Positions 51,609-57,695 are shown, counted from the stretch's first letter. The stretch is DNA of 64,000 bases from Actinomycetes bacterium (GCA_029782025.1 JAKOVR010000052.1:1-64000), one strand, 5' to 3'. Numbers and translations are program-made. The notes: generated by a model not told the origin, from the letters alone.

Positions 51609-53066
51609 TCACGGGTCGAGCGTGGGGACGGCCTGGGGTGACGGGATCTGGGGGAGCGGTCCCTTGTTGATGGCGGCGCTGACCTTCTCGACCTGGACCT
51701 TGGTGTCGGGCAGCGACGGCACGCTCGGGTCGGGCGGCGTGGCGAGGTCGAAGGCGACCGTGAGGTCGGCCATCGTCTCCCGGCGCCAGGCCGACAGGTT
51801 CGGCACCTCGACCCCGAAGCGGGTCTCGAGGAACCGCAGGACCGACGTGTGGTCGAAGGTCTGGCTGGCCACCCGGCCCTTGTCGCTGCGGGCCCGCGCG
51901 AACGGCGAGACGATGATGGTCGGGATGCGCCCGCCGCACCCGATGGGCTCGGGCTCGGTGCCGCCCGGGATCGTCACCCACTCGTCGGGGGTCCCCGGGG
52001 CGGGCACCGGTGGGGGGACGTGGTCGAAGGCGCCGTCGGTCTCGTCGTAGGTGAGGATGAACGCCGTCTTGGCCCACACCTTCGGGTTGGCCAGCAGCGC
52101 ACCGAGGAAGCCGGCGGTGTAGTCCTCGCCGAGGGCGGGCGCCCAGATGGGGTGCTCGCTCTTGGCCTCCGGCGCCACGATCCAGCTCACCTGCGGGAGG
52201 TTGCCGGACGCGACGTCGGCGGTGAAGTCGGCGAGCGTGCGGTTGGCGATGGCGTTGTCGTACAGGGGATCCCCCGGCTTGGCGTCGAGGTAGCGCTGGT
52301 AGTACTTCACGACGTTGTCGTCGTAGTCGTCCTGCTCGTGGTAGATCCGCCAGGAGACGCCGGCCTTCTGGAGACGCTCGGGGTAGGTGTCCCAGCGGAA
52401 CCCCTTGCCGTTGTTGTCGACGACGGGGCCGCCGCCCGTGCCCCGCGGGTCGATCGTGCCGGTCATCGCCATGTGCCGGTTGGGGAGCGTCGGGCCCATG
52501 ACCGAGCAGAAGAATCGGTCGCAGAGGGTGAAGTGGTCGGCGAGGGCCCAGTAGTAGGGGATGTCGACCCGCCGGTAGTAGGGCAGCGCCCGGGGGCCGT
52601 TGACCTTGGCGAAGCCGTCGAGCTTCCCGCCGTTCCAGCTGGCGTGCATGCCCTGCCACAGGTGGTTGCTCCCGCCCAGGGCCTGCCCGGCGCTGTCGAG
52701 GCTGCGCACGTGGAAGGGCAGGATGTAGCCGTCCGGGTGCTGGTCGGTGGGCTGGTACCAGAGGGGCTTGCCGTTGGCCTGGATCAGCACGTCGGGGTCG
52801 GCGAAGCCGCGGACGCCGGGGCGGGTGCCGAAGTACATGTCGAAGGAGCGGTTCTCCTGCATGAGGATCACGACGTGCTCGATGTCGGTCAGCTTCCACG
52901 CCCCGGCCCCTGCGCCGGTCCCGGGCGTCGACGCCGCCGCCGTGGTCCCGGCCGCGGCCCCACCGGGCCCCGATCCCGAGCCGCTCGACGAGCACCCGGC
53001 CAGGAGCCAGCCGCCGGCCAGCGCCGCCGCACCACCCAGGACGTCACGACGGGAAGGTTGCGCCAT
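51609..53066 (-). CDS. Tat-exported phosphoesterase lipoprotein (phospholipase C family)
   Basis: A 485-residue acid-phosphatase/phospholipase C family protein. The N-terminus SRRDVLGGAAALAGGWLLAGC combines a twin-arginine motif with a lipobox (Cys25), so it should be a folded, lipid-anchored enzyme on the outer face of the membrane. The catalytic domain has HVVILMQENRSFDMYFGT (metal and nucleophile region), PTLPNRHMAMTG, DETDGAFDHVPPP and TFDHTSVLRFLETRFG, the family's metal-binding blocks. Substrate: phospholipid or another phosphodiester. TACCCT exactly at -12 to -7 of the ATG marks a leaderless start. Confidence 0.92.
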   Translation of the reverse strand: MAQPSRRDVLGGAAALAGGWLLAGCSSSGSGSGPGGAAAGTTAAASTPGTGAGAGAWKLTDIEHVVILMQENRSFDMYFGTRPGVRGFADPDVLIQANGKPLWYQPTDQHPDGYILPFHVRSLDSAGQALGGSNHLWQGMHASWNGGKLDGFAKVNGPRALPYYRRVDIPYYWALADHFTLCDRFFCSVMGPTLPNRHMAMTGTIDPRGTGGGPVVDNNGKGFRWDTYPERLQKAGVSWRIYHEQDDYDDNVVKYYQRYLDAKPGDPLYDNAIANRTLADFTADVASGNLPQVSWIVAPEAKSEHPIWAPALGEDYTAGFLGALLANPKVWAKTAFILTYDETDGAFDHVPPPVPAPGTPDEWVTIPGGTEPEPIGCGGRIPTIIVSPFARARSDKGRVASQTFDHTSVLRFLETRFGVEVPNLSAWRRETMADLTVAFDLATPPDPSVPSLPDTKVQVEKVSAAINKGPLPQIPSPQAVPTLDP

Positions 53067-53096: not shown

Positions 53097-54137
53097 CTAC
53101 GGGACGGTGACCCGCACGTCGGTGAAGCCGGCGTGGCCGTCGGAGAGCAGGGCGATCCGCCCGGCGCCGAAGGTGCCGTCGCTGGCGTTGGCGGCAGTGG
53201 CCCCGGCGACGGAGCACGACAGCGAGGAGCCGGAGGCCCGGAACGTCATGTCGTAGAACGTGCTGGCGGTGAAGGCGTGGCCGACCGACGCGAGGACCGT
53301 GGCCGAGCCGTTCTGGAACCGGCCGACGAGCAACTGGTGGTTCGGCAGGTCGACCTTGCAGAACAGGTAGTTGTCGGCGTCCTGGTAGCGCAGGCCGAGC
53401 CCGGCCCGGATCACCGCGGGGTCCATCTTGAACCGGGCGCGGACGGTGACGTCGCCCCAGGCCGCGCCGGCCGACGCCCGGCTCTCACCGGTGCCGGTGG
53501 CGCCGTAGAAGGGGCCGTCGGCGGTGTTCATCACCGACCAGCTGCCGGAATCGGTGGTCCAGCGGCCGGCGCCGCCGGAGAAGTCGTCGAAGAACACCTC
53601 CCCGGCGACGGTGGTGGGGGTCGTGGTGGTCGGGGCCGGCGTGGTGGTCGTCGGTGCCACCTTGGTGGTGGACGTCGTGGCCGGGCCGGCCTTGGCGGTC
53701 GTGGTCGTCACGCTCGGGCCCGGGGGCAGGCTGGTGCTGCCCGGCGGCGCCGGCGCGGTGCTGGTCGTGGTCCCGGGTTCACCGGCCGTGGAGGTGGGGC
53801 CGTCGGTGGCGGCCGGGCCGGTGGCCGTGGTCGTCGGGCTGGTCGAGCCCCCGGTGGTGGGCGCCGATGTCGGGGGAGCGTGGGTGGTGTCGACCAGCTC
53901 GTCGCCGCCCCGCCGGGTGGCCGAGAACAGGAGGAGCAGGGCGGCGACGACGGCCGCACCGGCGAGGACCCACTGCGGGCCGCCCCACGCCGGGGCGCGG
54001 CGAGTGGCCTGCAGGTCGGCCAGGGTGGTGTGGGCCAGTCGCGGAGGGACGGGCTCCCGCTCGAGGTCGGTGAGGTAGGCGTCGAGCCGCTCGGTGAGCG
54101 GGTCGGGGCCGGCGCCGGGATGGGACGGTTCAGGCAT
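53097..54137 (-). CDS. Membrane protein with extracellular LamG-like domain, probable anti-sigma partner
   Basis: A 346-residue single-pass protein. A cytoplasmic part of about 53 residues (LTERLDAYLTDLEREPVPPRLAHTTLADLQATRR in pieces) precedes one membrane helix (WVLAGAAVVAALLLLFSA). A Thr/Pro/Ser linker runs from about residue 80 to 175, and a concanavalin A/LamG-like domain follows (FFDDFSGGAGRWTTDSGSWSV ... GLGLRYQDADNYLFCKVDLPNHQLLVGRF) to the end. Its start overlaps the ECF sigma gene by 8 bases, the usual sigma/anti-sigma arrangement. There is no HxxxCxxC zinc motif, so it would be an atypical anti-sigma factor; the sensing role of the extracellular domain is inference. Confidence 0.75.
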   Translation of the reverse strand: MPEPSHPGAGPDPLTERLDAYLTDLEREPVPPRLAHTTLADLQATRRAPAWGGPQWVLAGAAVVAALLLLFSATRRGGDELVDTTHAPPTSAPTTGGSTSPTTTATGPAATDGPTSTAGEPGTTTSTAPAPPGSTSLPPGPSVTTTTAKAGPATTSTTKVAPTTTTPAPTTTTPTTVAGEVFFDDFSGGAGRWTTDSGSWSVMNTADGPFYGATGTGESRASAGAAWGDVTVRARFKMDPAVIRAGLGLRYQDADNYLFCKVDLPNHQLLVGRFQNGSATVLASVGHAFTASTFYDMTFRASGSSLSCSVAGATAANASDGTFGAGRIALLSDGHAGFTDVRVTVP

Positions 54138-54771
54138 CGCCCAACTCCTTCCTGAGGGTGGCCAGCGCCCGCTGCACGTGGGTACGCACGGTGCCGGCCC
54201 GGCAGCCCATCACGGCCGCCGTCTGCTCGATCGAGTAGCCGTGGTGGTAGTGGAGCACGATGGCGGCCCGCTGCTTGGGCGGGAGCTTGCGGTAGGCCCG
54301 ATCGAGGTCGGGGTCGTGCACGGCGCGTCCGGCCGAGGCGGCGGCGCCGACGGGCTGACCCGGGAGCCGCCCGGCATCGGCGGCCACCGGATCGGTGGTG
54401 TCCCACGGTGCGGAGCGGTCCAGCCGGCGCTTGCGGCGGAAGCAGTGGTGGAGGCAGATCTTGGTGAGCCAGGCCGAGCGCTTCGACTCGTCGCGCACGC
54501 TCGACCACGCCTTCCACGCCCGCCACATCGTCTCCTGGACGGCGTCCTCGGCCTCGGCCCGGTCGTGGAGCACCGACAGGGCGAGGTGGTAGAGCCGGGT
54601 TTTCTCGCGGGCGAACACGGCGTCGAAGGCCGCCTCCGGGGGGAGCGCGGCGTAGGCCAGCTCGAGCGGGAGGGGGACCGGGGCCGGGTCGTGCATCGCG
54701 GGGACGGGCCACACCCGGGCCGCCCGGGTGGAGGTGGTCAGGCTAGGGCACCTCGCGGTCGCAGTGGGCAT
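54130..54771 (-). CDS. ECF-type RNA polymerase sigma factor
   Basis: A 213-residue sigma-70-family factor with region 2 (FAREKTRLYHLALSVLHDRAEAEDAVQETMWRAWKAW, containing the DAVQETMWRAW signature) and region 4 (YRKLPPKQRAAIVLHYHHGYSIEQTAAVMGCRAGTVRTHVQRALATLRKEL). I chose ATG 54771 because GGAGG lies six bases upstream. A shorter form from MHDPAPVP is possible and would drop 26 residues. It overlaps the downstream membrane protein, and the second ECF gene is divergent at 54914. Confidence 0.88.
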   Translation of the reverse strand: MPTATARCPSLTTSTRAARVWPVPAMHDPAPVPLPLELAYAALPPEAAFDAVFAREKTRLYHLALSVLHDRAEAEDAVQETMWRAWKAWSSVRDESKRSAWLTKICLHHCFRRKRRLDRSAPWDTTDPVAADAGRLPGQPVGAAASAGRAVHDPDLDRAYRKLPPKQRAAIVLHYHHGYSIEQTAAVMGCRAGTVRTHVQRALATLRKELGDA

Positions 54772-54913
54772 GGCATCCTCCGAGGACGGGACGGGAGCGG
54801 TGCCGGACCCGTCGCCCTTCTGAGTCCCGGGCCGTCCGAATCGACGTACACGGATCGTCCGGGCCGATGTGGACGCGGCGGCGGCCTGGCGCGTGTACCC
54901 CACCGTGCTGCCG

Positions 54914-55447
54914 ATGGCCGACGAGACTGGGCGGGTGGAGACGACCGTCCACGACCACTTCCCCGCCTTCTTCGCCGCCGAGTACCCGGGCGTGGTGCGC
55001 CTCGTCCGGGCGCTGACGGGGAGTCGGCCGGTGGCCGAGGACGTGGCCCAGGAGGCCTTCGCCGCCGCCCATGACCGCTGGGACCGCGTCGCCGGGTTCG
55101 ACCGGCCGGACCTGTGGGTGCGCCGGGTGGCGCTGAACCGGGCCATCGGCGTCCATCGCCGCCGCCGGTCCGAGGCACGGGCCCTGGAACGCCTGCAGCG
55201 GGCGGGGATGCCGATGGTCGTGCCCGTGGCCCCGCAGGAGCCCGACGCCCGGGTGTGGGCCGCGGTGCAGGCCCTGCCCCGCCGGCAACGCCAGCTCGTG
55301 GCCCTCGTCTACGTCGAGGACCGGGCCATCGAGGACGCCGCCGCGATCCTCGGGCTGTCGGCGTCGACCGCCCGCACCCACCTCCACCGGGCCCGGGCGG
55401 CCCTCGCCGCCGCGCTGGGCCCACCCACCGACGAGGAACGACGATGA
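54914..55447 (+). CDS. ECF-type RNA polymerase sigma factor (second, divergent)
   Basis: A 177-residue SigE/ECF-type factor: region 2 YPGVVRLVRALTGSRPVAEDVAQEAFAAAHDRWDRV and region 4 ALPRRQRQLVALVYVEDRAIEDAAAILGLSASTARTHLHRARAALAAAL. It is clearly different from the sigma factor on the other side. The ATG at 54914 is preferred; a GTG 45 bases upstream is an alternative. Its stop overlaps the ATG of a membrane protein by four bases (ATGA), the standard arrangement with an anti-sigma partner. Confidence 0.88.
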   Translation: MADETGRVETTVHDHFPAFFAAEYPGVVRLVRALTGSRPVAEDVAQEAFAAAHDRWDRVAGFDRPDLWVRRVALNRAIGVHRRRRSEARALERLQRAGMPMVVPVAPQEPDARVWAAVQALPRRQRQLVALVYVEDRAIEDAAAILGLSASTARTHLHRARAALAAALGPPTDEERR

Positions 55448-56349
55448 CGACCCCCGACCCTGCCACCGCTGACGACCTCGACGCCACCGTGCGGGCCGCC
55501 CTCGCCCGCCACGCCGGCGGTCCCGTCGACGCGGGACCGGCCGCCCTGGGCGCGGTGGCGCAGCGCAGCGCCCGCCGGCGGTCCCGCCGCCGGGCGGTGG
55601 CCGCCGGGCTCGGCGCCGCGTCGCTCCTGATCGGCGGCGCCGCCCTCGCCGCCCGGGGCGGTGCCGGCGCGCCCCCCACGGTGGAGGCCGGGGTGGCCGA
55701 CGGGTCGGGCCCGTCGGATCCGCGCCCCGGGGGATCCGAGGCGGCCGCCCCCGCCGAGTCGAGCACCACCGCGCCGGCCGCCACCGTCCCGGAACGCCGG
55801 CCCGACGATCCCGAACCGTCGACCTCGCTGCCGGCGACCTTGCCCACGCCGCCGCCGTCGACGGTGCCCCCCACGAAGCCCCCGACCACCACGACGACCC
55901 GGCCTCGGACGACGACGACCACGGCCGGCCCCACGACGACCACCACCACGTGGCCCTTCCCGCCCGACGGCCCGTCCACGGACCTCGCCGCCGCCAAGGC
56001 GCTCTGGGACGCGTCGAAGCCGGCGCGGTACTCCTACTACATCCGCAGGACCTGCTTCTGCGCCCCGGACTACGTGCGGCCGCTCCACGTGTTCGTCGAC
56101 GGCGCCACGGTTCGGGTGACCGACGGCGAGTCGGAAGCCACGGTCTCGCCGGACGTGGCCAAGGGGTTGACGATGGACGAGCTCTACGCCGAGGCGTCGG
56201 CCATCGGCCCGGGCGGTCGGATCGTGGCGCTCCAGATCGAGACGACGGGGCCGGCGGCGGGCCGCATCGTCCGGATCGAGCTCGACCCGATCGTCCAGGC
56301 CATCGACGACGAGATCGGTTACGAGGTGGCGTCGTTCACCGTGGGGTGA
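55444..56349 (+). CDS. Membrane protein with extracellular DUF6174-like domain, probable anti-sigma partner
   Basis: A 301-residue single-pass protein. A cytoplasmic N-terminus of about 50 residues with an Arg-rich end (RSARRRSRRR) precedes one helix (AVAAGLGAASLLIGGAALAA). A Pro/Thr/Ser linker with poly-Thr runs from about 75 to 175, followed by a compact domain (ARYSYYIRRTCFCAPDYVRPLHVFVDGATVRV ... YEVASFTVG) that resembles DUF6174-type secreted domains. Its CFC pair may form a disulfide or bind metal. It overlaps the ECF gene by four bases. The plan, though not the sequence, mirrors the partner of the other ECF sigma factor. Confidence 0.75.
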   Translation: MTTPDPATADDLDATVRAALARHAGGPVDAGPAALGAVAQRSARRRSRRRAVAAGLGAASLLIGGAALAARGGAGAPPTVEAGVADGSGPSDPRPGGSEAAAPAESSTTAPAATVPERRPDDPEPSTSLPATLPTPPPSTVPPTKPPTTTTTRPRTTTTTAGPTTTTTTWPFPPDGPSTDLAAAKALWDASKPARYSYYIRRTCFCAPDYVRPLHVFVDGATVRVTDGESEATVSPDVAKGLTMDELYAEASAIGPGGRIVALQIETTGPAAGRIVRIELDPIVQAIDDEIGYEVASFTVG

Positions 56350-56352
56350 CGC

Positions 56353-57657
<1,305 letters not shown>

Positions 57658-57695
57658 GCCCGGCAATCTAAGCGATCCTGAACGGAAGCGCAGTA

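Follow-up and report, generated by a model that had tools for sequence, protein, structure and literature searches.

Two divergent ECF sigma factor modules with overlapping membrane partner genes in an actinobacterial genome

Two ECF sigma factor genes lying back to back, each overlapping a gene for a single-pass membrane protein, raise the question whether they form one signalling unit or two switches that happen to be neighbours. The arrangement occupies positions 53097-56349 of a 64,000-nucleotide stretch of DNA (the window) from an Actinomycetes bacterium. The initial annotation took it to suggest a two-input unit of envelope signalling, possibly cross-regulated. The data reported here lead to a different reading, in which the locus probably hosts two autonomous switches, each made of an ECF sigma factor and a membrane-anchored anti-sigma factor. 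The mirrored arrangement does not amount to a new system.

Gene order, start sites and neighbours

The four genes make up two divergent pairs at the sides of a 142-bp gap (54772-54913), presumed to carry the promoters. Reading frames, strands and starts were checked, and the two sigma genes proved to start at 54771 and 54914, as annotated. On the minus strand, sigA (54130-54771, 213 aa) overlaps by 8 bp (54130-54137) the downstream gene asA (53097-54137, 346 aa), which encodes its probable membrane-anchored anti-sigma factor. On the plus strand, sigB (54914-55447, 177 aa) overlaps by 4 bp, at the sequence ATGA (55444-55447), the gene of its own probable membrane-anchored anti-sigma factor, asB (55444-56349, 301 aa). 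A GGAGG sequence (54781-54777) is found 5 nt upstream of the sigA ATG at 54771. The sole sigA relative starts, in the alignment, opposite Met26 (54696), and a shorter SigA initiated at 54696 is therefore possible. No clear Shine-Dalgarno sequence was seen upstream of the sigB start.

Both sigma factors are of ECF size and contain regions 2 and 4 (PF04542, PF08281) above the cut-off. Pfam E-values for Sigma70_r2 and Sigma70_r4_2 are 9.8e-13 and 1.4e-15 in SigA, 6.1e-9 and 1.8e-14 in SigB. For either protein the nearest named NCBIfam model is TIGR02983, the SigE family. SigA scores 109.2 bits and SigB, which is SigE-family-like, 120.8 bits (5e-35); both values fall short of the curated cut-off of 141.55 bits, and membership in the family was rejected.

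The gene following asA on the same strand (51609-53066) encodes an exported phosphoesterase of the phospholipase C / acid phosphatase family (PF04185, 9.1e-108), and starts at 53066, 30 nt after asA. The protein carries an RR motif and a lipobox (RRDVLGGAAALAGGWLLAGC). Spacing and strand suggest co-transcription, and the phosphoesterase gene is probably the third of the sigA-asA operon, and a target of SigA. A different gene is found downstream of the module A relative known from another genome, so the link between module A and the phosphoesterase is not conserved. At the other edge, a gene for myo-inositol-1-phosphate synthase (56353-57666, minus strand) converges on asB and ends 3 bases from it; module B has thus no further gene downstream on its strand here.

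Cytoplasmic parts and ectodomains of the membrane partners

The two partners share the plan originally described, a short cytoplasmic part, one helix, a Thr/Pro-rich linker and an extracellular domain. In AsA the cytoplasmic part spans residues 1-55, the transmembrane helix residues 56-74 approximately, the linker extends to about 178, and the ectodomain covers about 179-345. In AsB the corresponding limits are 1-50, about 51-69, about 175 and, for the ectodomain, 181-299. One transmembrane helix is predicted in each protein, from residue 56 and 51 or so, respectively, and the orientation is inferred. Since both cytoplasmic parts are devoid of Cys, the HxxxCxxC zinc motif is missing, as annotated, and assignment to the zinc anti-sigma (ZAS) class was discarded. 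Its absence is not unusual, since among class I anti-sigma domains about 44% are without the motif (PMC7406223).

The N-termini were also compared with profiles of known anti-sigma domains, as the annotation had proposed, and no Pfam or NCBIfam profile recognised an anti-sigma domain in either AsA or AsB. This fits the idea that the sigma factors, instead of being inhibited, depend on the partners for activation or for attachment to the membrane, or that the partners are sensors acting through another protein, as does the dual, activating role reported for the anti-sigma factor RskA (PMC7509140). Such alternative is rather unlikely, because no other kind of ECF regulator is as widespread as the membrane-anchored anti-sigma factors, whose genes usually neighbour that of the sigma factor (PMC8103513), and because the cytoplasmic parts are too short for most other roles. 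An anti-sigma function of AsA and AsB is probable on the basis of gene overlap, topology and recurrence of the arrangement.

Structural models, of low to moderate confidence in this region, place two short helices ahead of the transmembrane helix in both proteins, at residues 13-26 and 39-45 in AsA, and at residues 7-23 and from 32 onward in AsB. The comparison with characterised inhibitors is instructive. RseA and RskA, which are class I proteins without zinc motif, and the class II protein CnrY are likewise encoded beside an ECF sigma factor, and consist of a cytoplasmic N-terminus, a membrane helix and an extracytoplasmic sensor. Yet, class I cytoplasmic domains average 101 residues (PMC7406223), and those of AsA and AsB, with 50-55 residues, are shorter; the class I fold is a three-helix bundle plus a fourth helix, encompassing about 100 residues, whereas only two helices are modelled here with the limited confidence mentioned. 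By length and by the two modelled helices AsA and AsB seem nearer to CnrY, which embraces its sigma factor with two helices (PMC4598750), but match neither CnrY nor class I proteins in sequence. Anti-sigma domains shorter than 50 aa have been set aside as possible members of class II (PMC4598750, PMC7406223).

No match was found between the cytoplasmic parts of AsA and AsB (E 0.31). Partners were compared all against all by using the cytoplasmic parts only, along with shuffled controls; a version including the transmembrane helix was dropped as compositionally biased. Against the controls, the AsA N-terminus is nearest to that of its relative in another genome of the family (L002; z 7.3), followed by L074 (z 4.0), and the AsB N-terminus is nearest to L033, from genome G060 (z 7.5), followed by L034 (z 5.7). 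The L033 partner has an ectodomain unlike DUF6174 in spite of an N-terminus resembling that of AsB, and in these sequences inhibitory part and sensor thus appear to have been exchanged between modules.

The AsA ectodomain had been described as LamG-like. The fold was assigned correctly, but the domain is more exactly CBM66-like. It matches the CBM66 of Bacillus subtilis levanase both in sequence (5.5e-8, with a two-sequence profile) and in fold (Foldseek 9.4e-8; Z 15.2, rmsd 2.8, 143 aligned residues, 19% identity), and similarly matches the xanthan-binding CBM66 of Cohnella. The next structural relatives are galectins, which share the concanavalin/galectin fold. In levanase and in the Cohnella protein the module sits on an enzyme, in AsA on a membrane sensor. 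CBM66 members bind fructans or xanthan (PMC11002231), and by analogy a polysaccharide is the likely ligand of AsA.

The AsB ectodomain corresponds, as proposed, to DUF6174 (PF19671, 2e-14, 54.4 bits versus a cut-off of 23.8). The modelled domain may possibly adopt a LolA/RseB-like fold. Comparisons with LolA, LprG, RseB and MucB give Z values of 5.5-6.2, which are weak (<8); among the structure matches listed most have the LolA/RseB fold, the best Foldseek E-value being 8.6e-3. Elsewhere in the order DUF6174 is found mostly in proteins in which a lipobox was noted by eye. In another family of the order, a DUF6174 single-pass protein (L120, G459:C300) overlaps an ECF gene by ATGA, and the combination of DUF6174 with an ECF partner is therefore recurrent. 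A second DUF6174 protein, in which the domain follows one hydrophobic segment, is encoded in the genome under study (L116, G000:C153:8372-8641); no ECF gene was recognised within its 1.5 kb flanks. A limited literature search retrieved no mention of DUF6174, and no report of DUF6174 or CBM66-like ectodomains as sensors of anti-sigma factors.

One unit or two neighbours

The plan shared by the two modules is not unusual in this genome, which was sampled as 38 stretches for the analysis of partners. Out of 41 matches to sigma-70 region 2, about 20, including sigA and sigB, precede a gene which overlaps or abuts them and encodes a single-pass partner without zinc motif. Similarly, 23 of 24 sigB-like loci (L018-L041) have a transmembrane partner, mostly at ATGA. 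Within the non-redundant set of 47 partners, 28 start at -3 and 5 at -7, the HxxxCxxC motif is missing from the cytoplasmic part of 44, and the cytoplasmic parts have a median length of 49 residues. The procedure used to find partners required a hydrophobic helix but not an overlap, so that the overlap is a genuine finding, while the helix is partly built in. Two partners (L046:1524-2417, minus strand, G000:C184, and L045:1331-2323, minus strand, G000:C92) match zf-HC2 just over the cut-off without carrying HxxxCxxC, and are, judging from their sequences, degenerate zinc anti-sigma domains.

Divergent starts separated by 142 bp, and an identical protein plan on both sides, make it conceivable that the mirrored pair is a single two-input envelope unit, in which both sigma factors control the 142 bp, activating or competing at each other's promoter. 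The number of divergent neighbours expected by chance is about 0.02 for some 20 modules among about 4,400 genes, by a hand estimate that assumes random gene order, and this too speaks for a unit. The estimate concerns an arrangement singled out once it had been seen, and chance is therefore plausible, though not proven, in spite of the low expectation. A full-length module A relative was found in just one of 60 related genomes, another genome of the family (L002/L042), where the AsA relative is 38% identical over its length, and its gene overlaps by 8 bp, as in the window, that of a SigA relative (49% identical in the alignment). No ECF gene lies divergently to that module. Relatives of SigB, at most 50% identical, occur in 18 other genomes, the closest being 47-50% identical; no divergent ECF gene is present in their flanks, of which 1.5 kb at most was covered (a shorter stretch where some contigs end). 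In a six-frame screen of the loci two ECF genes were found at none, except those covering the window. The AsA ectodomain has only weak matches (E 1e-7 to 1e-4) in 247 genomes of the class. The four-gene order is thus missing in the relatives covered, a result that the annotation had named as refuting its reading.

The proteins themselves speak against a joint function, SigA and SigB being 29% identical over 159 aa, and the cytoplasmic domains of AsA and AsB unrelated. A shared promoter is not recognisable in the gap. No sigma-70-type promoter-like site was detected in the interval 54600-55050, a simple scan of the 142 bp disclosed no ECF-like GGAAC/CGTC pair, and the repeats found in the gap are only GC-rich and chance-like. 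The absence of a promoter-like signal in the gap neither favours nor rules out shared control. When all this is considered together with the 20 or so comparable modules in the genome, a two-input unit looks quite improbable. What stands of the initial description is that two overlapping sigma/membrane partner pairs with unlike ectodomains lie back to back; the single cross-regulated unit is not supported. Modules A and B are probably neighbours by chance.

The symmetry of the locus could also have arisen if one module had recently been duplicated and inverted, as the same plan on both sides might suggest. The low identity of the sigma factors, and N-termini that do not match, rule out such an origin, which was given next to no probability; overlaps of different size (8 and 4 bp) and the unlike cytoplasmic parts and ectodomains are likewise at odds with it.

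A second divergent ECF-like pair was noticed on contig C208 of the same genome, at 3400 (minus strand) and 6058 (plus strand), the two matches being about 2.5 kb apart.

Mode of action and the set of exchangeable sensors

If the two modules are autonomous switches, the short N-terminus of each membrane protein would hold its own sigma factor inactive, probably as a clamp made of the two modelled helices. In response to an outside ligand or stress the inhibitor would be removed, the likeliest route being regulated intramembrane proteolysis by a site-2 protease, and the freed sigma factor would transcribe a small regulon together with the operon to which it belongs. Candidate M50 site-2 proteases are encoded in the genome. 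Module A would sense through its CBM66-like, probably polysaccharide-binding ectodomain, and probably control the gene of the exported phosphoesterase that follows it; in module B, sensing would occur through DUF6174, possibly endowed with a LolA/RseB-like fold.

A close parallel in terms of organization is provided by the SigI/RsgI systems of Clostridium thermocellum, which also occur as many parallel pairs per genome, and combine a common inhibitory N-terminus and transmembrane helix with swapped C-terminal sensors, including carbohydrate-binding modules (PMC12203970). In contrast, the sigma factors described here are of the ECF type, not SigI, a Thr/Pro linker follows the helix, and the binding module is CBM66-like. 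Pfam revealed no RsgI N-terminal domain in AsA or AsB, and given this absence, and the ECF nature of the sigma factors, identification of the partners as RsgI proteins was rejected. AsB might in turn resemble RseA/RseB and MucA/MucB, in which an envelope sensor of the LolA fold is coupled to the anti-sigma factor. AsB would differ from these systems by combining sensor domain and anti-sigma factor in a single polypeptide; the fold match to this group is weak (Z 5.5-5.7).

Modules A and B belong to a large, lineage-wide set of gene pairs with one plan and exchangeable ectodomains. The broader point is the number of sigma/partner pairs with swapped sensors found in one genome, and the window provides two clear instances of an architecture that this actinobacterial genome repeats about 20 times. 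One may go further, and tentatively envisage a plug-in family, with about 20 pairs of ECF sigma and two-helix anti-sigma factors per genome and ectodomains swapped freely, in which AsB would combine an RseA-like inhibitor and an RseB-like lipid sensor as naturally fused parts of one protein. This extended scenario is itself doubtful; that the mirrored pair acts as a two-input unit is less likely still. If the N-termini do inhibit the sigma factors, the ectodomains would be testable clues to the surface signals perceived by such uncultured actinobacteria, and profiles that at present overlook anti-sigma factors of this sort could be extended with the short two-helix domain.

The ectodomains of the partners encoded in this genome are of many kinds, and include Kelch, bacterial Ig, NIT, FtsX-ECD and DUF4232 domains, or belong to no known family. 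Kelch-like and bacterial Ig-like ectodomains are found in the ECF partners at L066:1158-2561 (minus strand, G000:C193) and L050:6020-7327 (plus strand, G000:C208), and a NIT (nitrate and nitrite sensing) domain (5.9e-11) in the ECF partner at L073:1596-2783 (minus strand, G000:C53). The ectodomain of a further ECF partner, at L076:1691-2746 (minus strand, G000:C189), is an FtsX extracellular domain (PF18075, 1.6e-31), and this protein is a possible sensor of cell division or of the cell wall.
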